Assembly: GCA_027618255.1 (NCBI GenBank)
Contig: JAQCFG010000014.1
Location: forward strand, 1 to 37,703
Length of the DNA stretch: 37,703 nucleotides
Origin: Cyanobacteriota bacterium
GTDB taxonomy: Bacteria; Cyanobacteriota; Vampirovibrionia; LMEP-6097
Direction: 5' to 3'
Shown: positions 6,462-34,809 of the stretch, piece by piece
Layout of the letters: the number at the start of each line of letters is the position of its first letter
How positions within the stretch are numbered: position 1 is the stretch's first letter
The notes under the pieces: model-generated
The model's database searches: none
The model's input: the letters and a program-made list of their open reading frames with translations, nothing else
Told to the model about the DNA's origin: nothing
Translations under genes and position numbers: made by a program

Positions 6462-6833
6462 CTAGTCTACAACCACACCCTCAACCCTAACAAACTCAGG
6501 TTTCTTTTCTGCTAAATAGGCTCTGTAAAAATCGGCAGCATTCATTGGTGCTTTGCGCGTGTCCATATGCTCATTAGACTTGTTTTGAAAGTCAGAATTA
6601 TCTCCGAAGGCAACACGCGCATTCCCCGCGGTTGCTACCTTTTTTTGAGCGACCTGTACATCAGAACTTTGTTTTGAAACAGGTCTATTTAATTGAGAAA
6701 CAAGTTTACTGGCTTCATCGATAATTTTGCTTAGTGCTCTGTCTTTGCCGTTGTCATGGGCACGACGCGCCGCTTGAAGTACCTTATTGAGCATTTCAAT
6801 AGTTTGGCGTTGATTGAGACCAAGATCTTCCAT
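6462..6833 (-). CDS. Hypothetical protein carrying an in-frame palindromic repeat
   Basis: This is a 123-residue protein of unknown function. Residues 1-48 form a basic helical segment ('NQRQTIEMLNKVLQAARRAHDNGKDRAL'). Residues about 49-87 are encoded by a palindromic repeat that recurs between rsmI and the protease-kinase gene, here open in frame. The last 35 residues ('NAADFYRAYLAEKKPEFVRVEG') look like a separate native segment. No signal peptide and no recognised domain. It is convergent with fur, and a palindromic region separates it from the upstream NagA-like gene. The repeat looks like an insertion that the protein tolerates. Confidence 0.55.
   Translation of the reverse strand: MEDLGLNQRQTIEMLNKVLQAARRAHDNGKDRALSKIIDEASKLVSQLNRPVSKQSSDVQVAQKKVATAGNARVAFGDNSDFQNKSNEHMDTRKAPMNAADFYRAYLAEKKPEFVRVEGVVVD
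6571..6687 (-). repeat. Palindromic repeat family 1, copy A (inside a reading frame)
   Basis: On the minus strand this 117-bp stretch aligns almost end to end with 25402-25519, with roughly 12-16 differences and two single-base gaps. Internal hairpins include GACCTGT/ACAGGTC and GCAAC...GTTGC arms. In this copy the frame is open through the whole element. Confidence 0.8.
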
Positions 6834-21476: not shown

Positions 21477-21499
21477 TTAATTAGGCTAGAGTCTATAAT

Positions 21500-21666
21500 G
21501 TTTTGCCTTAAATTTTGCTCACTTGGGAGCAAAACTCACCGAGTTTTATCCGCAAAATTTATTCTGAGCAAGGCGAATACCCCGAAGCTTATTCGGCTTT
21601 GAAACGAAGATCATTGAGGAAACAAGGCGGAGTGTCATTGTTTTCTCCGAAAACAAACGTCAAAAC
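21500..21666. repeat. MITE-like repeat family 2, copy 1 (with internal insertion)
   Basis: It starts GTTTTGCC and ends GTCAAAAC. Bases 21500-21572 match 30506-30578 almost throughout, and the last 30 bp match again; about 75 bp in between are unique to this copy. Perfect internal hairpins include TTTTGCTC/GAGCAAAA and AAAACTC/GAGTTTT. It fills the gap between aroC and the ATPase together with the two hairpins above; no gene is seen in 21343-21681. Confidence 0.8.
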
Positions 21667-25401: not shown

Positions 25402-25519
25402 TAGACCTGTTTCGAAACACAGTTTCGATGTACAGGTCGCTCAAAAAATGTAGCAACCGCGCGGAATGCGCGTGTTGCCTTTGGAGATAATTCCGACTTT
25501 TGCAAAAGGTCTATTATGA
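25402..25519 (+). repeat. Palindromic repeat family 1, copy B (intergenic)
   Basis: This copy aligns with 6571-6687. Its ends are inverted repeats, TAGACCT and AGGTCTA. Internal arms include GACCTGT/ACAGGTC (25404-25438) and a GCAACCGCGC...GCGCGTGTTGC hairpin. A one-base deletion breaks the reading frame seen in copy A, yet several differences elsewhere are synonymous with respect to that frame. Its right end overlaps the stop codon of the 1652-residue gene. Confidence 0.8.
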
Positions 25520-28500
25520 ATTGATACGAAGTTGCAGCTTCTCAATCATTGTAAAGTGTTGATCGACTGATTCTTTGACCAATGATTGAATTGTTGTTGT
25601 TAGGAATTGTGCGTGTTTATCTTCGTCACTATTAGCAGGAGCTTTCATTAGAGGAGCTAACATTGCAATAGTATTTGCGATCTTGATCCAATTCTCTGAT
25701 ACTTCTTTATCTTGGCTTGCTACAAAATCGACAAACGCTTCAAACTGTTCTTTGATTTTGTCTAGTCCTTCAGCTTCAATAGAGTCCTCTTGAAGCCAGT
25801 TTGTTAATGTTGCTTGAAATGAGTTGACTTCGTCTTCATTCAATTTGACCATTGAGCTTAGAAGAATAGGTAGCTCTTTGACTTTGTTTCCCACATCGTT
25901 AAAAGCCAAAATTAAACTGACTAAGGTTTTTTGTTCTTCTTTGGTGATTGTTTCTATTGCTCCACTGTCATACCAACAAACTAGAGGTTGATTCTTTTGT
26001 TTGATGAGCTTACCAGAGTCGTCATGCACTACTCCAAAATTACCAAGGTTGACATCTGATTGATAACAAGAGCCAAGTAAAATTTGTCTAAGGACTCTTA
26101 ATCCAACTGCATTGCTGATTCGGTTAGCTTCTTGTTCTCCTATTTGTTCAGTTAAGAGATGGCTGTCTAATTCATAACCAGGTTGGAGTTTGCTGACAAG
26201 AATATTGCCATGTGATAAATCCTTGTCTATCGTTACAGGAATGTGTACTAGTCCGTCTTTGCTTGGAGTTTGCAATTCTTCTGCAAGTAGTTCAGCTCTT
26301 TTGATTTCTTCAGATGGATCAGTTTGTGAAAGCAGCTGTTCTTTCAAAATATCACATGTGTTGCTTGGGATTTTTAGCCCATCGAATTCATCACTATGCT
26401 CATTGATGTAATTAATAAGGCTTGAAATATAAGTAATATCCATGTCTATTTCTGCTCTAATAAAGGGATGGATGATTTTGACAGCTCGTTGATTGTCTAG
26501 ATCTTGACAATGTAGAGCTGCTTGGGAAGGATTGAGTTGAGCTCGATAAGTCGTTGCCATAGAGCCTTCGCCTAGCTTTTGTCCAGAGGCATTTGGATCA
26601 AATGGTGAACCTGATTCTTGGTATTCAGCATCTAGGTGGTGATAAAAAAGATTGGTGTCTGAAATTGTATTCTCGCTAGAAAGTTTGCGGAGTGCTTGTT
26701 TGTAAGCCGTTGGGATATTCATGGTTGCAAGCTTTTGTCCAAATTTAATAAAAGCTGGACCAGAGCTTTGCATGAACTGTGCAAGTAATTCAGGCATATC
26801 AATGGATTCTTGACTGGAAATATTCCATAGATTGAAAAAAACATCGCTAATCTTTTGTTCAGGACAATTGTTCAGAGCAAAGCTTAGAAATGATTTCATT
26901 GCTTTTTTTTGATTGTCATTTTGGGACATTGAAGGACTTGACTCCACTAATCTATTGGCAACACGGTTTAAAAATTCATCTCTTAGTGTCGGATTTTTGA
27001 GTATACCTCTTGCTCCATTGAAAGCTGCTTCAAGGATTTCTATCCTTTGTCTTTTACTGCTGCTGGCTTGCTCAATTGATAATAATGTTTCAGGTTTAAT
27101 GCCGAGTTTTTTGCTGAGTTTAATTATGATATCTGGGCTTTGATAATGCAAATAGTCTCCAGTCTGATATTCGGTATCAACAAAAATTGTTCCAGCTGGG
27201 TACCTTAATCTATCATCTGTGATAATATCTTCGGAATAACTAATTTGAGCAGATGAGTCCTCTACGCTGAAATCCCTTTCTCCCAGTAAATATAAAAGGA
27301 AATCAGCTTTGTCAAGGTCTCTGGTGTTGCTCACTAAGTCTAATAATGATTCTTCAGCAAGACTAGTTTCTATCTTGCGAGTTGAATTCTTGTCTATAAT
27401 TGGAGGCTCGGTTAAGAAACTTGCAAGTAATTCTTTGTCTCCTTTACTATTTGCCCTGTCAATAAAAGGTCTTAGTAATTCATTCCTGTGATAAGAAGCT
27501 GAAGTATAACTAATTAGAATATGTTCTAATTCTTTGTTGTTTCTAATTTCTGGATCATTGATATTTCTAAGTTGAGCTTTGATTGGTGCTAGTTTTGCAG
27601 TGTCTTTTGACTGATCATCGTATTGTTCATAAATCCTAGCTTCACAAGTTTGAATAAGTATTTTGTTGTAAAAATTGTCTCTTAATTGAAATAGAGTCTC
27701 CAGGTCATTTAATTTGCGGATTTCTGCTTGTGTTGTTTTAATATCATCAAGTATAGTGATCGGTGTCAGTCCTAGAGCCTCAATCATTTTTTGATCACGA
27801 GATAAGCATGCAATGGGTTGGCTTGTGACTAAGAAATCTAATTTATTCTTGCCTTGTGTTAGCTCTGAGTATTCTTGCCCAAAACCTTCATGCCATAAAT
27901 TCCATAGCTGTGCAAAAGTAAAAACCTCAGCTTCTAATTGAGAGTATGATGTACTATCTATTTTATCTCTACCTAAGCGGTAGAATTCTTCTGTAAACTT
28001 GTCCTGTCCGTGAATAATTATATAATCCTCAGCAGAGCTAGATAGACCTAAGTTAAGTAATGATTCGAGGCTAGAGTTTCTATGTCGAGCTAATTGTTCA
28101 GTAAGGCTGGTATCATCTTGAAGCCCATACATGAATTGACGGATTTCTTCTTGACTAAGTTCAGTTTGTTCCTGTAACTTGTCATAAGCTCTGTTTATCA
28201 GGAGCCTATCCCAGTTTTCATCGAAAGTCTTAGAAAGATATTCTGGTAGCTCTGTGGCTTGTTCTCCAGGATTATGACGAGAAAAGCTTCCAAGAGCTGC
28301 TGTCGTTGCTATGATGATTTTTTGTTTCGTTTCTACTAAAAACTCAGGGCTTAGTTCATCTTTATAACTAATATGAAAAATAGGTACAATTGAATTGGGA
28401 TTTATTCTTTGTTCTAGTTTGGCTTCAAGCTGAGAAGATTTTTCTAATAATAATTTGACTTCAGGTAGATCTATTAGAGTAAGTTCTCTCAGTTTGCTTT

Positions 28501-30472
28501 TGTCAGCAATTTCTTTATCAATTTCTGCAACGAGTGTAGCTTTATCACGACTGAAATTACGGTGATTGAGCTTATGCTCTTTAGCAAAGCTTGCCATCTT
28601 GGCAAATAAATTATTTTCGCCACGGTTTACATAAAAATAGACTGGCATCAAATCTTTGGTGACTAGAATATTGTCATTCATTAGCTGGATGATTGATTTT
28701 TGAACTTCTGTGTCACCATCTTGAAAACATGACTCTAATAGCTGTATTAACCTGGGGTTATGACTAAGAATAGAAGCTCCGTGAGTCAATAAGTTGGAGC
28801 TTGCAAGTTGCACCATATCTTGAAGAATTTTTAGCTCGCTTTGACCATTAGCATGCGCTTGTTTTACCCAGCTATCTGCTAGTAGATTACTAAGAGCTTG
28901 GTATCTTAAAGTATCGGAACTAATATGTAAGTCTTGCTTATGGTCAATTAAATGACGAGTATTGATTATGCTAAATATTAGTTTAATTTGTTCTAGGTTA
29001 AGTGCAGCAAAGTCTTCTTGAAAAAAATCTAGTGCTTCAAAAGAGCCTTCATTATTACATGCAAGAGCCGCTTCTTTAAACCAATCATTGAGCAGATCTT
29101 GGGTTTCGGCGTCACCTACTTGTGGGTTATCAAGTTGTTCTATTTGAGATGCAAGAGATTCTGAAAAAAGATCATCATCTAGGTTGTCTGAATCTGTTAA
29201 GTTTAAATCTGCGATATTTTCAAGCTCTTGAACAAATTGAACAAAATCTTGATCGCTTATGCTATCTAGTTCCGCTGCATCAAAAACTAAATTTAGTTTT
29301 TTGTAGCCATACATGGTGGGTTCATTTTCTACTTTGCAATATTGAGGAAAAAGATCTGCTATTGCTTTCTTATCAGTTATGTTATTTACTATGTCATTCA
29401 AAGATCCTAGTTTTGATAGTCTTAATTGATTTTGCATGCCTTGACCTAGGTTGATATAAGGCCTTGATGCTTCAATAGCAGGTCTCATATGGTCATTATC
29501 GTAACCAGTCCAATCTTGAGAAATATCATCAGCTGCAATTTGACTTAACTGGGTTGACTTTGTCTGAGCTACTGGAAATTGTCTCGCTAATTGATTGATA
29601 ACTCTGATTCGGCGTTTAGTATGTGGGTGGGTGCTGAGTAATGTCATCTGCAAATTTTGTCCATCGTCTATTTTGTGATCGGGGTACTTTGTGTCTTTGA
29701 AATGCTGGTTTGTAATTGCTTGAGCATTTTGTTCGATTTTGCTTAGTGCATCAGCAATTGCTGATGGTTTATCGCCAGATAGAGAGGAAAGAAAGCTTGC
29801 TAGCCTATCGCAGGAATATTCTTCAGCAAAATTGCCTATATGGTTGCCAATAGGATCGAAGCGTTCGGATGGATTTGCTGGGCAATGGTGCTTAAACAAA
29901 AAGTGACCTAGCTCATGAGCCATAACAGCTCTAGTTTCAGCATGATCATAGTCAAGTGTATCTAGCAATGCTCTTGAGATGAACATATTGCCAGTGACAG
30001 GATTGATCATAGCGTTTGGTATGTCTTTAAAGTATATTTTTTTCTCTGAGAATGGAAAGGGGTACATAGATCCACGTTGATCAAATACATGTACTTTCAC
30101 TGAGCCATGTTCTAATCCGAGTAAATCCATTAAACCAGTAAGGATTTGATCAAGTTCTTGTTTGGTTGAATGATCCTCGGCTAAAAAATTATTGTTGTTA
30201 AAAAAGTTGGCATCAAACTCTTTGGCTATTTGCTCTAAGTCGTGCGGAATTATTTCCCTTGAATCAAGTAGACTTTGTGGGATTAGTGTGGGGCGGTTTG
30301 TACCTAGTGGAAAACCCTGAGCGGCTGTGGCTGCTCGCAAGGCTGAGCCTACTTGCATTTGCATTGATGTTACTGGTATTTGAGGGGTTTGCCACGTTGA
30401 TAAATTTGCCCACAAGTATAAAAAGCGAGAAGTGGGCTTATCTTGATACCAGTCAGCTTCCTGTGATGTCAA
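25514..30472 (-). CDS. Fusion of M48-like metalloprotease and ABC1/UbiB-like kinase
   Basis: This is a 1652-residue protein. Near the N-terminus 'HAETRAVMAHELGHFLFKHH' gives an HExxH zinc site (His186, Glu187, His190), and 'EEYSCDRLA' supplies the third ligand (Glu218), as in M48 peptidases. About 950 residues of charged helical sequence follow with no recognised domain. The C-terminal 450 residues carry ABC1/UbiB kinase marks: 'GPAFIKFGQ' (Lys1243, Gln1246; the KxGQ motif), a nucleotide loop 'LGEGSMATTYRA' (1300-1311), 'AVKIIHP' (Lys1332), 'QSDVNLGNFGV' (Asp1473, Asn1478) and 'WYDSGA' (Asp1502) in place of DFG. No signal peptide or membrane segment is evident. The TTG start has AGGA 5 nt upstream; an ATG at 30364 is an alternative. 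Confidence 0.8.
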   Translation of the reverse strand: MTSQEADWYQDKPTSRFLYLWANLSTWQTPQIPVTSMQMQVGSALRAATAAQGFPLGTNRPTLIPQSLLDSREIIPHDLEQIAKEFDANFFNNNNFLAEDHSTKQELDQILTGLMDLLGLEHGSVKVHVFDQRGSMYPFPFSEKKIYFKDIPNAMINPVTGNMFISRALLDTLDYDHAETRAVMAHELGHFLFKHHCPANPSERFDPIGNHIGNFAEEYSCDRLASFLSSLSGDKPSAIADALSKIEQNAQAITNQHFKDTKYPDHKIDDGQNLQMTLLSTHPHTKRRIRVINQLARQFPVAQTKSTQLSQIAADDISQDWTGYDNDHMRPAIEASRPYINLGQGMQNQLRLSKLGSLNDIVNNITDKKAIADLFPQYCKVENEPTMYGYKKLNLVFDAAELDSISDQDFVQFVQELENIADLNLTDSDNLDDDLFSESLASQIEQLDNPQVGDAETQDLLNDWFKEAALACNNEGSFEALDFFQEDFAALNLEQIKLIFSIINTRHLIDHKQDLHISSDTLRYQALSNLLADSWVKQAHANGQSELKILQDMVQLASSNLLTHGASILSHNPRLIQLLESCFQDGDTEVQKSIIQLMNDNILVTKDLMPVYFYVNRGENNLFAKMASFAKEHKLNHRNFSRDKATLVAEIDKEIADKSKLRELTLIDLPEVKLLLEKSSQLEAKLEQRINPNSIVPIFHISYKDELSPEFLVETKQKIIIATTAALGSFSRHNPGEQATELPEYLSKTFDENWDRLLINRAYDKLQEQTELSQEEIRQFMYGLQDDTSLTEQLARHRNSSLESLLNLGLSSSAEDYIIIHGQDKFTEEFYRLGRDKIDSTSYSQLEAEVFTFAQLWNLWHEGFGQEYSELTQGKNKLDFLVTSQPIACLSRDQKMIEALGLTPITILDDIKTTQAEIRKLNDLETLFQLRDNFYNKILIQTCEARIYEQYDDQSKDTAKLAPIKAQLRNINDPEIRNNKELEHILISYTSASYHRNELLRPFIDRANSKGDKELLASFLTEPPIIDKNSTRKIETSLAEESLLDLVSNTRDLDKADFLLYLLGERDFSVEDSSAQISYSEDIITDDRLRYPAGTIFVDTEYQTGDYLHYQSPDIIIKLSKKLGIKPETLLSIEQASSSKRQRIEILEAAFNGARGILKNPTLRDEFLNRVANRLVESSPSMSQNDNQKKAMKSFLSFALNNCPEQKISDVFFNLWNISSQESIDMPELLAQFMQSSGPAFIKFGQKLATMNIPTAYKQALRKLSSENTISDTNLFYHHLDAEYQESGSPFDPNASGQKLGEGSMATTYRAQLNPSQAALHCQDLDNQRAVKIIHPFIRAEIDMDITYISSLINYINEHSDEFDGLKIPSNTCDILKEQLLSQTDPSEEIKRAELLAEELQTPSKDGLVHIPVTIDKDLSHGNILVSKLQPGYELDSHLLTEQIGEQEANRISNAVGLRVLRQILLGSCYQSDVNLGNFGVVHDDSGKLIKQKNQPLVCWYDSGAIETITKEEQKTLVSLILAFNDVGNKVKELPILLSSMVKLNEDEVNSFQATLTNWLQEDSIEAEGLDKIKEQFEAFVDFVASQDKEVSENWIKIANTIAMLAPLMKAPANSDEDKHAQFLTTTIQSLVKESVDQHFTMIEKLQLRINS

Positions 30473-30505
30473 GTTTTTCCTGAATCTATCCCTTTGAACT
30501 ATAAC

Positions 30506-30596
30506 GTTTTGCCTTAAATTTTGCTCACTCGGGAGCAGAGCTCACCGAGTTTTATCCACAAAATTGATTATTTTCTTCGAAAACAAATGGCAAAAC
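30506..30596. repeat. MITE-like repeat family 2, copy 2 (compact)
   Basis: A 91-bp element has perfect 8-bp terminal inverted repeats, GTTTTGCC and GGCAAAAC. It matches the two ends of copy 1 (21500-21666) but lacks its middle. It lies between the RiPP cluster and the protease-kinase gene; a TATAGT box for the latter (30498-30503, minus) abuts it. Confidence 0.85.
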
Positions 30597-30643: not shown

Positions 30644-32113
30644 TTAGCTACGAGCTCCTTGGTTTTCGGCTACGTTCGAATAAAAATGCTTAACGGCAGC
30701 CGCAGACTCATGAGTTTTATAAATCATTTCTAGGTATTTCACTAGTTCTGTATTGCCACTGTATTCAAAATCAACTGATTTGAGTTTTTGGCTAGCGATA
30801 TATTTAGCTAGAATAATCATTTGTTCTTTGGCTGAGAGCAAGAATTGTTTGCTGGCAACAGTACGATATTGTTCGTAGACGTACTTGAGGGTGCTGATGA
30901 CTTCAGATCGATTGCTGCGTTTCCAGGATTGATTAGACTCTATATAAAGATCAGCTTGCGGGTCCCAAGCAAGTAGGTAGTCCGAGTCACTTGCTTGATT
31001 GCTTTGAGCCAGTTTTTCAAAACTCAAATAATTCCACGGAATAGCAATCTCAGCGTGTTTGTGCCAGCCATTGCGCAGGACTTCGTGCATGCTGTTGCTG
31101 CCGTCATGTCTGCCACTAGCGCTACTTTCTGTTGCCAGAGCTGCCCAAGAGCCGCCTTCAAGATTGAGAAGAGCTTCAGGTACCGCTTCATAATCACCAA
31201 GTAAATTAAAAATCACTCTTGCTGCCTGTCCTAGACTCGATTCAAGTTCAATTGCTTCAATTTGTTGGTCTTGTTCTGGATGATAAGCCTTCTTATGAGC
31301 AATGCTGTCAATTAATTTATTACTGATTTCAAGCTTGAAGTCGCCACTGATATTTTGGTAGTTATTTGCCTGAGGCACTATGATTAGCCATCTTTCGTCA
31401 AGTTTGATTTTGTAGATTGGTGAAGCCAATGAGTCGGTAGCTTCCTCTACAAGATTTACTTCTGCTAATACTTCACGATTTTTGTTGACATGATAAATCT
31501 TGCCCTGGTTTATAGAAGCGGTTTGTTGTTTGAATTGAGGTAAGTCCCAACCACTGAATCTGTTTTTGCGAGCTGCTTTAATTGCATTGGCTGGGATCAA
31601 AGCAATAGCAAGATTGTTTTTTTTGATTTTGTGAGCATGGATACAATCACTTAGCTGTGCAATATTGCAAATGCCTTCTGTAAAATGAAAATGATCGACT
31701 GCAATATCTTTGTAATGAGCTTGATGAATATTTCTTGCAGCCATCGCTTCAATGTAAGCGATACTAAAATCACCAATGAACTTTTGTCCTGCAATTGCTT
31801 GTGTCAGGATAATGCCTGAGGGACTGCTTTTGCAGCCAGATCTTAGTTTGTAGTCTTGCTGAGTGTCGCAAAGAAAATCAGCTTGATCTATTTTATTGTT
31901 TTCGATTAGTTTGCCTAATTTAAAACTAACTCTCTTGCCGCAAGCCAAAATCTCTTGTACCTTGGCAAGTAATTCTCGAGTTCCTGGATAATCTAAATAG
32001 TCCGGGTGTTCCTGGGAAGAGTCATTTATTGTTATTGGACGACAACTTGTATCAAACAGTGAAACCTGTTTTGCATTGGCGAGATCAGAATTATGCTTGG
32101 CACCCAAACCCAT
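30644..32113 (-). CDS. Unrecognised protein, last gene of the RiPP operon
   Basis: This 489-residue soluble protein matches no family I know. It starts 9 nt after the bufC stop on the same strand, so it is almost certainly co-transcribed. Visible marks include a His-rich segment ('ARNIHQAHYKDIAVDHFHFTEGICNIAQLSDCIHAHK') near residues 130-175, a middle beta-rich stretch ('PIYKIKLDERWLIIVPQ') and 'SGRHDGSNSMHEVLRNGWHKHAEIAIPWNY' near residues 333-362. The conserved-looking His residues could bind metal or be catalytic, but that is inference. No signal peptide or membrane helix. It could be an extra maturation enzyme, since DoxX (BufD) is missing. Confidence 0.65.
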   Translation of the reverse strand: MGLGAKHNSDLANAKQVSLFDTSCRPITINDSSQEHPDYLDYPGTRELLAKVQEILACGKRVSFKLGKLIENNKIDQADFLCDTQQDYKLRSGCKSSPSGIILTQAIAGQKFIGDFSIAYIEAMAARNIHQAHYKDIAVDHFHFTEGICNIAQLSDCIHAHKIKKNNLAIALIPANAIKAARKNRFSGWDLPQFKQQTASINQGKIYHVNKNREVLAEVNLVEEATDSLASPIYKIKLDERWLIIVPQANNYQNISGDFKLEISNKLIDSIAHKKAYHPEQDQQIEAIELESSLGQAARVIFNLLGDYEAVPEALLNLEGGSWAALATESSASGRHDGSNSMHEVLRNGWHKHAEIAIPWNYLSFEKLAQSNQASDSDYLLAWDPQADLYIESNQSWKRSNRSEVISTLKYVYEQYRTVASKQFLLSAKEQMIILAKYIASQKLKSVDFEYSGNTELVKYLEMIYKTHESAAAVKHFYSNVAENQGARS

Positions 32114-32122
32114 AGCTATGGA

Positions 32123-32848
32123 TTAGTCTATCAGTATATTGGCCGCTTGCAAATCCTTTTGGAGTTGATTAATTGCTTGGATATCTACTTGCAAATTAAA
32201 TTGCTTACAAAAGCTTTTATGAATTTCTTCTAATCCTTTGCCAGAGCCAATGGCCTGGATGACAAATAAGCTAGCCGGAGTGAGCACAAATGATCTATTT
32301 TTGAGGCTGGTTTCATCTCTATAAAAGAAGCTAATTTGCGCTTCTTCTTCAATATCGGTTGTTTGAATCTCTTCGATGCTATCTTCACTAGTCTTGAGAT
32401 ATTGCACAATTGTAGTAAGTGGATAAGTGAATTGCAGGACTTGGTGCACTGGTGTGAGCTTAGTAGTGGCTTGGATATTGGGAGCGTTGTAGATTTCTAG
32501 CTCGGTCCATTCATATAGCGCTAGTTCACTTAGATAGTTTGGGTAGTTATATTTCTCTTGGAGCTTTGGCTCGGCTAATAATTTGTGAAAATCAGCTGCT
32601 AGTTTGTGATAAACTGCCGATTTGCTTGGATATTTGTTTTGATATTGGATCATCAGCTTATTCCAGTTAGGTTCAAGGATTTTATAGCAAAGTGGATAGA
32701 TATTTTGCATCAAAGAACTGAGGCTACTGACTACTAGTGAGTAATAGACGCTTAATTCATCTTGAGCTTTTTGGGGGAGTATCTCAGGATTAGCTGCTTG
32801 TCCCTGCATGCATTTGAGTATTTCTTGTTGGATTTGATAGAGTGCCAT
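32123..32848 (-). CDS. BufC-like DUF2063 partner of MNIO enzyme
   Basis: The 241-residue protein begins 'MALYQIQQEILKCMQG', like the N-terminal DUF2063 domain of BufC/HvfC proteins. It continues with 'ELSVYYSLVVSSLSSLMQNIYPLCYKIL' and 'YPNYLSELALYEWTELEIY' and a C-terminal half with a winged-helix-like end. In characterised bufferin/oxazolin clusters this partner binds the precursor and assists the MNIO enzyme. It overlaps the end of bufB by 59 bp, which implies translational coupling and a fixed ratio. The direct order with bufB makes the family assignment secure, though sequence divergence is high. Confidence 0.8.
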   Translation of the reverse strand: MALYQIQQEILKCMQGQAANPEILPQKAQDELSVYYSLVVSSLSSLMQNIYPLCYKILEPNWNKLMIQYQNKYPSKSAVYHKLAADFHKLLAEPKLQEKYNYPNYLSELALYEWTELEIYNAPNIQATTKLTPVHQVLQFTYPLTTIVQYLKTSEDSIEEIQTTDIEEEAQISFFYRDETSLKNRSFVLTPASLFVIQAIGSGKGLEEIHKSFCKQFNLQVDIQAINQLQKDLQAANILID

Positions 32849-33728
32849 TCATGATGCCTTTTATTGTTTTAAGCTCTTCGACCAGTTCACTGAGTGCCGG
32901 GAAATTAGAATCCCGTTCAAGCAAAATTGCATTGACAGGAGTTCTTGCCAGTAGTTCTTCTAGTATTGTGTAAACCACTTGAGCAATTGCTTCGCCGTGA
33001 GTATCAAGGATTTCGATACTGTGCCCAGTATGCGAGCGATAACCATGGAGATGCCCAGCGATATGTACTTGAACTACTCGATCTAGCTTGAGTTGTTCTA
33101 GAAATTCCACTGGCGTATAGCAATTATGATTTGTCGCGTTGACGTGGATATTATTTACGTCTAACAAGAGCCCACAATCTGCCTGCTCAAGAATTGAGTT
33201 GATAAACTGGGCTTCGGTCATTTCCGGTTCAATAATGGTGGAGTAAAAACTTGGGTTTTCAATTAAAAATGGTATCTGCATTGTATCTTGCAAAAATTTG
33301 ACATTGTCACTAACGACATTGACAGTCTCTTGAGTGAAAGGAATTGGCAAAAGATTTTGTAAATAAATATCACCGACCCTTGTACATGACAAGTGATCGG
33401 AGAACCAGGGCGCATCTATTTCTTGAAATAATTCTTTGCAGGCGTCAATTAGATAAGGGTCATAACTAGGCTGTCCTGGTTTTTCTGGAGCTGTGCCGAT
33501 ACTGAGATTAACACCATGTGGTATCAATTTGATTTTGGAATCTAATACTGCTTGAAATTTGTGGGCTTTAATGCCACCAAGTTTGATGTAATTCTCTGGT
33601 ACGATTTCCAGCCATTCTATTAAGCCGTCATTTTCTTTGCTTTGATAAAATTCAAGGGTTTCTTCAGTGAGTCCCCTGCGCAGTCCGAGTCCTAGTCCTG
33701 GTTTGATTAATTTGTTTTTGTTAAACAT
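32790..33728 (-). CDS. MNIO (DUF692) RiPP-modifying enzyme, BufB-like
   Basis: MNIO enzymes are multinuclear non-heme iron oxidases that rearrange Cys residues of RiPP precursors (MbnB, TglH, ChrH, BufB/HvfB). The 312-residue TIM barrel has all expected blocks: 'LEIVPENY' (40-47), 'IPHGVNLSIG' (His71), 'WFSDHLS' (Asp111, His112), 'FLIENPS' (Glu157, Asn158), 'LLLDVNNIHVNATNH' (Asp190, Asn193, His201), 'VQVHIAGH' (His222), 'ILDTHGEAI' (Asp242, His244) and 'AILLERDSNFP' (Glu271). Its AGGA ribosome site is provided by the end of the adjacent repeat. It follows the precursor gene and its terminator. Confidence 0.95.
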   Translation of the reverse strand: MFNKNKLIKPGLGLGLRRGLTEETLEFYQSKENDGLIEWLEIVPENYIKLGGIKAHKFQAVLDSKIKLIPHGVNLSIGTAPEKPGQPSYDPYLIDACKELFQEIDAPWFSDHLSCTRVGDIYLQNLLPIPFTQETVNVVSDNVKFLQDTMQIPFLIENPSFYSTIIEPEMTEAQFINSILEQADCGLLLDVNNIHVNATNHNCYTPVEFLEQLKLDRVVQVHIAGHLHGYRSHTGHSIEILDTHGEAIAQVVYTILEELLARTPVNAILLERDSNFPALSELVEELKTIKGIMNGTLSNPTRNTQMHAGTSS

Positions 33729-33734
33729 TATTCG

Positions 33735-33815
33735 TCATCCTGAGCCCATAGGGCGCCAGAATCCCATTATCGCATATCTCAAGATCCTGATGGTTTCTAC
33801 GTTCCCTCAGCATGA
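33735..33815. repeat. TCATCCTGAG-type palindromic repeat between bufA and bufB
   Basis: The ends TCATCCTGAG (33735-33744) and CTCAGCATGA (33806-33815) form an inverted repeat with one mismatch. Internal GGGCGCCAGAATCC and AAGATCCTGATGG pieces fit the widespread 'TCATCCTGAG...GGATC' intergenic repeats. On the minus strand its end (CTCAGGATGA) carries the AGGA used by bufB. Confidence 0.7.
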
Positions 33816-33819
33816 TAGC

Positions 33820-33849
33820 AAAAAAAAGCCCCGGTATAACACCGAGGCT
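33820..33849 (-). terminator. Rho-independent terminator directly after the RiPP precursor
   Basis: On the minus strand AGCCTCGG, a loop TGTTATA and CCGGGGCT (8 bp with one T-G pair) are followed by eight Ts. It starts 27 nt after the precursor stop and before the MNIO gene. Confidence 0.93.
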
Positions 33850-33876
33850 CTCTTTTAAAGTTGTAGATTGCTTCGA

Positions 33877-34131
33877 TTATTCTCCGCATTTACCTTCGCC
33901 ACATTTGTGATCTTCGCCACACTTGTGATCGTCGCCGCATTTGCCTTCTCCACATTTGTGATCTTCACCACATTTGTGATCTTCGCTGATTAATAGTGAC
34001 GATGTTGAAGTTTCAGAGATACTGAAAATAGTATCTGTGTTTACTTCAAGATTGGGAGCAGTAATTGCGCTTGCACCTAGTGTAGTTGCTAAGCCAATTG
34101 CCAATGTTGCTACTTTAACTTTATTTTTCAT
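33877..34131 (-). CDS. RiPP precursor peptide, EGKCG-type bufferin/oxazolin-like
   Basis: The 84-residue product has a Sec-type signal peptide (residues 1-22, cleavage after 'LGASA'), a Cys-free spacer (23-49) and a repeat core. The core is two 17-residue units, 'EDHKCGEDHKCGEGKCG' (50-66) and the same with Asp at position 1 (67-83). Cys are at 54, 60, 65, 71, 77 and 82. EGKCG is the motif modified by the HvfBC/BufBC-type enzymes to make copper-binding groups; here four of six Cys sit in DHKCG instead. The MNIO and DUF2063 genes follow. AAAGGAGA precedes the ATG. It probably is exported after modification and binds copper or another metal. Confidence 0.88.
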   Translation of the reverse strand: MKNKVKVATLAIGLATTLGASAITAPNLEVNTDTIFSISETSTSSLLISEDHKCGEDHKCGEGKCGDDHKCGEDHKCGEGKCGE

Positions 34132-34140
34132 AAAACGTGA

Positions 34141-34183
34141 TCTCCTTTGTTTATGTTCTTATCGAACAAATTAGATTATATCA
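34141..34183 (-). promoter_or_regulatory. RiPP precursor promoter, operator-like palindrome and RBS
   Basis: On the minus strand TGA-TATAAT (34183-34175) is an extended -10. The palindrome TGTTC-N5-GAACA (34168-34154) covers the predicted start of transcription, a good place for a repressor. AAAGGAGA (about 34147-34140) is a strong Shine-Dalgarno. Confidence 0.6.
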
Positions 34184-34221: not shown

Positions 34222-34809
34222 TTAAATAATACCCTTGGTGGTTCTAATTTCACCAGCTATTCTTGCGTCTATAGTCTTGGCTTTATCAAAAGCAAGAGCA
34301 AAAGCCTTAAAGCTAGCTTCAATAATGTGATGAGAATTTGTACCAGTAATTTTGTGGAAGTGAACAACCATGCCACTGTTATTAACTAAGGCTCTCCAAA
34401 ACTCAACACATAATTCAGTTTCAAAAGTTTTGATGCGTTCTTTATTTACTGGCAGGTCATAGACTAAATAGGGTCTAGTACCAAGATCGATATCACAACT
34501 AACCAGCGCTTCGTCCATTACTACTCGTGCTGACGCGTAGCGAGTAATGCCTCGTCTCTCACCAAGAGCTTCTTTGATAGCTTGTCCTATCACGATACCG
34601 GTGTCTTCAACACTGTGATGGTCATCGATTTCATAATCACCCATGGTGTTAACACTAAGATCTATAAAAGAATGTTTGCGAAACTGGTCAAGCATATGAT
34701 CGAAGAAAGGAACGCCAGTCATGATCGAACCTTGGCCTGTTCCGTCCAAGTTGATTTCTACTGTTACTGCGGTCTCTTTGCTTTCTCTTTTGATGCTTGA
34801 TTTGCGCAT
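34222..34809 (-). CDS. hisB: Imidazoleglycerol-phosphate dehydratase
   Basis: HisB (IGPD) dehydrates imidazole glycerol phosphate in histidine biosynthesis, using two Mn ions. The 195-residue monofunctional form is present with 'GVPFFDHMLDQFRKH', 'DDHHSVEDTGIVIG' (His64, His65, Glu68, Asp69) and 'GTNSHHIIEASFKAFA' (His160, His161, Glu164). No other his gene is nearby. TGC-TACAAT at 34843-34835 (minus) lies 25 nt before the ATG and may be its promoter. Confidence 0.97.
   Translation of the reverse strand: MRKSSIKRESKETAVTVEINLDGTGQGSIMTGVPFFDHMLDQFRKHSFIDLSVNTMGDYEIDDHHSVEDTGIVIGQAIKEALGERRGITRYASARVVMDEALVSCDIDLGTRPYLVYDLPVNKERIKTFETELCVEFWRALVNNSGMVVHFHKITGTNSHHIIEASFKAFALAFDKAKTIDARIAGEIRTTKGII

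Follow-up and report, generated by a model that had tools for sequence, protein, structure and literature searches.

A probable Lys-Cys-type captophorin operon with histidine-enriched core motifs in a non-photosynthetic relative of cyanobacteria

What is made by a short, cysteine-rich peptide gene that is followed by genes for an MNIO enzyme and a DUF2063 protein, and how far does this system depart from those already known? The window (the whole stretch of 37,703 nucleotides analysed here) is contig C14 of a 2.0 Mb genome that is 96% complete; among named organisms its nearest relatives are Candidatus Melainabacteria MAGs, and the host lineage is a non-photosynthetic relative of cyanobacteria. 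A preliminary description of this DNA proposed a variant bufferin/oxazolin RiPP cluster with an unusual repeat core and no DoxX. The minus strand carries, in series, genes for a 443-aa protein, HisB, an 84-aa precursor, the MNIO, the DUF2063 protein and a 489-aa ORF. The features are as follows, L002 and L003 being the corresponding loci in the other two genomes of the genus.

34222..34809, minus strand: hisB, upstream neighbour, context outside the system (IGPD, 200 bits)
34140..34180, minus strand: putative promoter region of the precursor gene (read from the sequence; elements also in L002 and L003)
33877..34131, minus strand: precursor peptide, 84 aa, six KCG sites (ORF call; NCBIfam NF050137; orthologues in L002 and L003)
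33880..33981, minus strand: core repeat, two 51-nt units (45/51 nt identical)
33815..33853, minus strand: intrinsic terminator, stem-loop and U run (fold z -3.4)
32790..33728, minus strand: MNIO enzyme (DUF692, HvfB/BufB branch), 312 aa (PF05114; HvfB-family model; alignment with 3BWW; tree)
32123..32848, minus strand: partner, DUF2063 plus RRE region (PME type 1, HvfC family), 241 aa (PF09836; HvfC model)
30644..32113, minus strand: 489-aa ORF restricted to the order (9-nt gap to the partner; 5/9 genomes of the order)

The precursor, the MNIO with its metal-site blocks, the overlapping partner and the ORF were all found as first described. The order precursor, MNIO, partner is kept in L002 and L003 and widely across the class. 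Each of the three genomes of the genus has intact frames for the operon, with precursor orthologues at 5674-5925 in L002 and 5547-5861 in L003; the MNIO and partner frames overlap by 59 nt in the window, an overlap that is absent from L003. The precursor consists of a putative Sec-type signal peptide, a linker (IFSISETSTSSLLIS) and two 17-residue core units, the core reading EDHKCGEDHKCGEGKCG-DDHKCGEDHKCGEGKCG-E. Its N-terminus has a basic start, a hydrophobic stretch (KD19 1.63 at residue 7) and an ASA site identified by eye. It has no lipobox cysteine, and the precursor of a relative (L035) appears to have one. Four of the six cysteines lie within DHKCG and two within EGKCG. Between the two units, 45 of 51 nucleotides are identical; all six differences fall at third codon positions, five of them silent and one changing E to D. 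Because the differences are confined to third positions with a single E/D change, the repeat reflects maintenance by selection rather than a recent duplication. The two units and six KCG cysteines reported earlier are thus real at the nucleotide level, and the clean two-unit pattern holds in the window precursor, although L002 and L003 do not retain it. The novelty claimed for the repeat is narrower than it seemed. Buf_EGKCG/oxazolin precursors, described mostly from Pseudomonadota, carry a Sec signal, which is putative in the window precursor, and share the repeated KCG and in some cases 17-residue repeats, with DoxX optional; those repeats, however, hold two EGKCG per unit and the window's hold three KCG (PMC12452194). 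In family searches, the precursor passes the NCBIfam model NF050137 (KCGExKCG_twice, HvfA family; 29.5 bits, cut-off 19.5), fails the HvfA equivalog model (14.4 bits, cut-off 95) and has no Pfam match, DUF2282 included.

The enzymes point in the same direction. The MNIO scores 264 bits against Pfam PF05114, and its best NCBIfam model is the HvfB family (241.5 bits, under the equivalog cut-off of 360), with BufB at 225, ApyH at 84, ChrH at 62 and MbnB at 48 bits. Its metal-site blocks (SDH, EN, DVNN, HIAGH, D-THGE and LERD) align with those of PDB 3BWW, which is 72% identical to HvfB (PMC13419390). N175, D242 and H244, essential in HvfB (PMC13419390), appear to fall in the DVNN/DTHGE blocks, which are identical in the window MNIO. 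The partner matches PF09836 (DUF2063) at 33.1 bits (cut-off 27.2) and the HvfC model over residues 24-240 at 66.6 bits, under the equivalog cut-off of 142. In a tree of 49 MNIOs, rooted for drawing only, the window enzyme groups with its own family (100/99), has another of the class's families as its neighbour, and lies within the partner-dependent MNIOs. Outside these fall a Hymenobacter enzyme and the photosynthetic-cyanobacterial loci L004-L007, which have no adjacent DUF2063 gene. The window enzyme therefore stays inside the MNIO/BufB branch. Since the KCG model is passed, the HvfB and BufB scores lie far above those for ApyH, ChrH and MbnB, and the tree agrees, the assignment to the oxazolin/bufferin type stands. 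The best reading is a divergent Lys-Cys (oxazolin/fontiphorin-type) captophorin operon that most likely makes an exported copper buffer with 5-thiooxazoles, to which a probability of about 0.72 can be given. As both the MNIO and the partner score below the equivalog cut-offs, the exact chemistry may differ.

The closest known system is HvfABC(X), which makes oxazolin in Haemophilus (PMC13419390, PMC13097082). It shares six KCG cysteines in steps of 5/6 residues, an MNIO of the same branch, a DUF2063/RRE partner and an identical gene order, and its precursor has a Sec signal, a feature that is putative in the window precursor. HvfA differs in its AEGKCGEGKCG x3 core, which has no DHKCG, and the system includes the DoxX-like HvfX; the window, unlike it, has enzymes below the Hvf equivalog cut-offs and a terminator behind the precursor gene. 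FonABC, which makes fontiphorin (PMC13097082), is likewise a captophorin system of the Lys-Cys group with repeated KCG, an MNIO and a PME1 partner, but comes from a Gammaproteobacterium and has seven EGKCG-type sites; His at motif position 2 is not among the FonABC variants named in the main text of that study. NedABC, an EGKCG RiPP-lipoprotein system, also has a KCG core modified by an MNIO and a partner (PMC12636315), and its product is lipid-anchored, whereas the window precursor has no lipobox cysteine. The BufABC bufferins share an MNIO and DUF2063 partner of one large cluster, but their precursor is a DUF2282 protein of the Cys-Lys type and not a KCG peptide.

The DHKCG motif had been singled out as unusual, a view that the relatives weaken. 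HKCG recurs in precursors adjacent to MNIO genes in at least three families of the class: f1 (L002, L003, L034, L035 and L038), f3 (L056, L057 and L059) and f9 (L053). Family f6, whose labels in the tree derive in part from KCG peptides located elsewhere in its genomes, has EAKCG/EGKCG, and most loci of f2 have CKG peptides. The pattern drifts even within the window's genus: the sites of L002 are DHKCG, ESKCG, ESKCG, DHKCG, DHKCG and EGKCG, and those of L003 are DHKCG, EGKCG, EHECG, EHECG, EHKCG and EGKCG. FonBC fully modifies DGKCG and tolerates non-Pro changes at motif positions 1-2, save Arg at position 1, whereas it copes very poorly with Glu at position 3 (PMC13097082). Processing of DHKCG is therefore to be expected, and the EHECG sites of L003 are the odd ones. 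The main texts of the literature examined mention neither DHKCG nor EHKCG, and a search of plasmids for DHKCG precursors returned AKCG-type Acinetobacter/Moraxella precursors and chance matches only. The His enrichment is best seen as a lineage trait and not as new chemistry, and may tune metal binding; mixed ligation by His and thiooxazole is possible. With its His enrichment, the operon is a variant from a lineage beyond the Pseudomonadota in which experiments have been made, a modest novelty.

The copper context of the genome can be read from its other genes. The window genome encodes a haem-copper oxidase subunit, so the host is probably exposed to oxygen and in need of copper. None of the genes next to the operon is a copper gene. 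A copper P1B-ATPase above the cut-off is missing from every genome of the order, the window genome included, and present in 13 of 14 control genomes. CusA-type pumps above the cut-off occur in G003 (which has no MNIO), G015 and G021, and in none of the three genomes of the window's genus, the window genome's own matches lying below the cut-off. These absences come from a small sample of incomplete genomes with one model per family. Within these bounds, the lack of pumps in the genus is consistent with copper being buffered by a peptide instead of exported. A more ambitious claim, that the operon defines a His-enriched captophorin branch with mixed His/5-thiooxazole sites that serves as the main copper defence in genomes lacking P1B-ATPases and CusA-type pumps, is doubtful and is offered as a tentative extension.

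The role of DoxX was another point on which the locus had been thought unusual. Among the matches listed, no DoxX lies beside the operon or on the window contig, and the sole one for the window genome sits on another contig (C3). This absence, however, is the rule in the class. When MNIO and PF07681 positions were compared by eye over 146 class genomes (DoxX matches listed to E ~3e-4), DoxX was found within about 5 kb of the MNIO in about 6 of 75 MNIO-bearing genomes (G002, G011, G014, G015, G036 and G114, among the DoxX matches listed). Within the same family, L038 comprises DoxX, precursor, MNIO and partner, and L034 lacks DoxX; such clusters have been described as ‘various combinations’ of the four genes (PMC12452194). 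The absence at the operon stands, and its unusualness does not.

The preliminary description went further and had DoxX replaced by an unknown protein, the product of the 489-aa ORF. In a wider form of this idea, the ORF would act within the pathway in place of DoxX, be it in transport, tailoring, protection or the delivery of metal. It is conserved in sequence and lies directly 3' of the partner gene, with gaps of 7-28 nt in genus g1 and G038 (9 nt in the window); because of this close spacing it is probably co-transcribed, and the spacing is taken to mean nothing beyond that. Against a pathway role, G003 keeps the ORF directly 3' of hisB with no RiPP genes between and no MNIO in the genome, the MNIO operons of G009, G015 and G021 have no such ORF, its product has no membrane span, and DoxX is mostly missing from the class anyway. 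The ORF was rejected as a DoxX substitute, and the wider role is unlikely. Of the nine genomes of the order, five have the ORF, and no further homologue turned up in the 146-genome class sample or the 292-genome phylum sample; family and PDB searches gave no significant match, and two AlphaFold runs (mean pLDDT 41 and 45) gave no confident model. The ORF belongs to a conserved chromosomal block of aroC, rsmI, the ORF, hisB and the 443-aa gene (names other than hisB assigned by eye), into which the RiPP genes appear to have been inserted, or from which they were lost. It is probably a co-transcribed passenger rather than a RiPP component.

Histidine is a common ligand of Zn, Ni and Cu, and its enrichment could mark a change of metal. 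The product might then serve another metal (zinc, nickel or gold) or defence against oxidative stress; gold and oxidative stress are also among the cues to which the studied family responds (PMC13097082). The studied KCG products nevertheless bind copper (PMC13097082, PMC13419390), and the window genome combines a copper-dependent oxidase with the absence of a P1B copper pump match, which makes such a switch distinctly improbable. Another modification altogether, either a methanobactin-like oxazolone-thioamide or a TglH/ChrH-like rearrangement, is suggested by the distance of the enzyme, which is at most 54% identical to class MNIOs outside its own genus and less than 60% identical to every plasmid copy. 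The scores speak strongly for HvfB over MbnB, ChrH and ApyH, the MbnB cut-off of 325 is not reached, the partner is a DUF2063 protein and not MbnC, and all characterised cases with such a partner and a KCG precursor give 5-thiooxazole (PMC13097082); this alternative is very unlikely. A decaying or non-functional operon is scarcely credible: in G021 and G015 the gene next to the MNIO and partner encodes a lipoprotein that resembles a precursor but lacks a KCG core (L036, L037), and L003 holds two EHECG sites of a kind hardly accepted by FonBC, but the intact frames in three genomes and the near-silent divergence of the window's core repeat argue against it.

What the preliminary description did not contain is a conserved terminator behind the precursor gene. 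A GC-rich hairpin followed by a U run lies directly 3' of the gene in the window, L002 and L003 (3/3 genomes of the genus), with fold z values of -3.4, -4.0 and -5.7, respectively; it is also found in L034 and L053 and is absent from 17 other loci tested. A generic promoter/terminator scan listed no terminator at this site and direct folding revealed the hairpin, the miss presumably being due to the A-/U-rich flanks, which extend the stem. Upstream of the precursor gene lie a TATAAT (34175-34180), a palindrome TGTTC-N5-GAACA (34154-34168) and a Shine-Dalgarno sequence AAAGGAGAT (34140-34148). L002 and L003 also carry the TATAAT, a palindrome of the TGTTC type and AAAGGAGAT, although the generic promoter scan scored these elements no higher than expected by chance. 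The distance from the hairpin to the MNIO start in L002 is only about 25 nt; with so little room for a promoter, expression of the MNIO most simply depends on read-through. The terminator should lower transcription of the MNIO relative to the precursor and lead to a molar excess of precursor over enzyme.

A scheme for the captophorin operon can be proposed from these elements. The precursor would be made in excess from its own promoter, most transcripts stopping at the terminator just behind, and read-through would supply the MNIO and the DUF2063/RRE partner. The remaining steps are modelled on systems such as HvfABC and FonABC (PMC13419390, PMC13097082). The partner would engage the signal-peptide/linker region of the precursor in the cytoplasm; HvfA, for instance, is best modified when its signal peptide is present (PMC13419390). 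The KCG cysteines would then be oxidised by the iron-dependent MNIO to 5-thiooxazole, with a change of -4 Da per site. After export by the Sec system, the product would bind and buffer Cu(I) outside the cytoplasm, and the His that precedes four of the cysteines by two residues may add metal ligands.

The conserved terminator suggests a simple means by which such operons may hold substrate above enzyme. If the proposed reading is true, the natural variants DHKCG, ESKCG, EHECG and EHKCG would offer a probe of what MNIOs accept and of whether His tunes the choice of metal. That the genus seems to lack classical copper export would make it a natural case for asking whether peptides can replace pumps. 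Peptide-based copper buffering would then reach an uncultured lineage that branches deeply beside the photosynthetic cyanobacteria.

The stretch ahead of the precursor gene and the linker of its product each carry a recurring pattern.

Window 34154-34168: palindrome TGTTC-N5-GAACA, between the TATAAT element and the Shine-Dalgarno sequence of the precursor gene.

Variants of this palindrome are present in the two loci of the same genus (L002 and L003), and it is possibly an operator. Between signal peptide and core, the linker reads roughly F-x-[LIM]-x-E and, some residues on, L-[IL]-[AS]; this pattern is common to the precursors of the window, L053, L056, L059, L068 and L069-L074, and may be a recognition motif for the partner protein.

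Behind the precursor gene, the region between the terminator and the MNIO gene is occupied by a repeat in the window and in L003 and not in L002.

Window 33733-33810 and L003 5917-5994: dispersed palindromic repeat starting with CGTCATCCTGAG.

This 12-mer occurs 10 times in the window genome, against a control count of 0. In L003, the 489-aa ORF seems to contain a translated insert that is similar to this repeat. Two intergenic repeat pairs were also found in the window, one inverted (6575-6687 and 25402-25513; about 110 nt, 87-91%) and one direct (21493-21563 and 30499-30569; 71 nt, 92%). One further gene lies between rsmI and the 489-aa ORF, a place it does not occupy in L003 and L039.

Window 25514-30472, minus strand: protein of 1652 aa in which an M48 peptidase domain is joined to a kinase domain of the ABC1/UbiB-like type.

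Copper P1B-ATPases were searched for with TIGR01511: none of the nine genomes of the order (G000, G003, G009, G015, G021, G027, G032, G038 and G043) has one above the cut-off, and the window genome gave no match at any score.

The genes next to the MNIO vary among the compared loci. In photosynthetic cyanobacteria (L004-L007), the MNIO is preceded by a conserved membrane protein (MDILINNPISLMYGPYFLL...), which may resemble TIGR04222 proteins, and these neighbourhoods hold no DUF2063 gene. In family f2 of the window's own class (L043, L045, L061, L063 and L064), two unlike Cys peptides stand in tandem ahead of the MNIO: the nearer one, with CKG repeats, adjoins the enzyme gene, and the farther one, about 560 nt upstream, is of the ACGKG(A/S)CG kind. 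In family f6 (L042, L044 and L047), a very short ORF with CGExxCGGDG-like end letters precedes the MNIO, and longer KCG-repeat precursors are found in f6-type genomes at other sites (L069-L074), away from this pair.

In L036 (6242-7628) and L037 (6542-7922), MNIO and partner adjoin a precursor that resembles a lipoprotein and from which the entire KCG core has been lost. The precursor of L035, a locus of family f1, has the same N-terminus but retains EHKCG, DHKCG and EGKCG behind it.

L035 7120-7353, minus strand: KCG precursor in which LNAC appears to form a lipobox.

Because of this lipobox, the L035 product is probably lipid-anchored and would be a captophorin (copper-binding peptide) resembling NedA, the lipid-anchored KCG precursor of NedABC.
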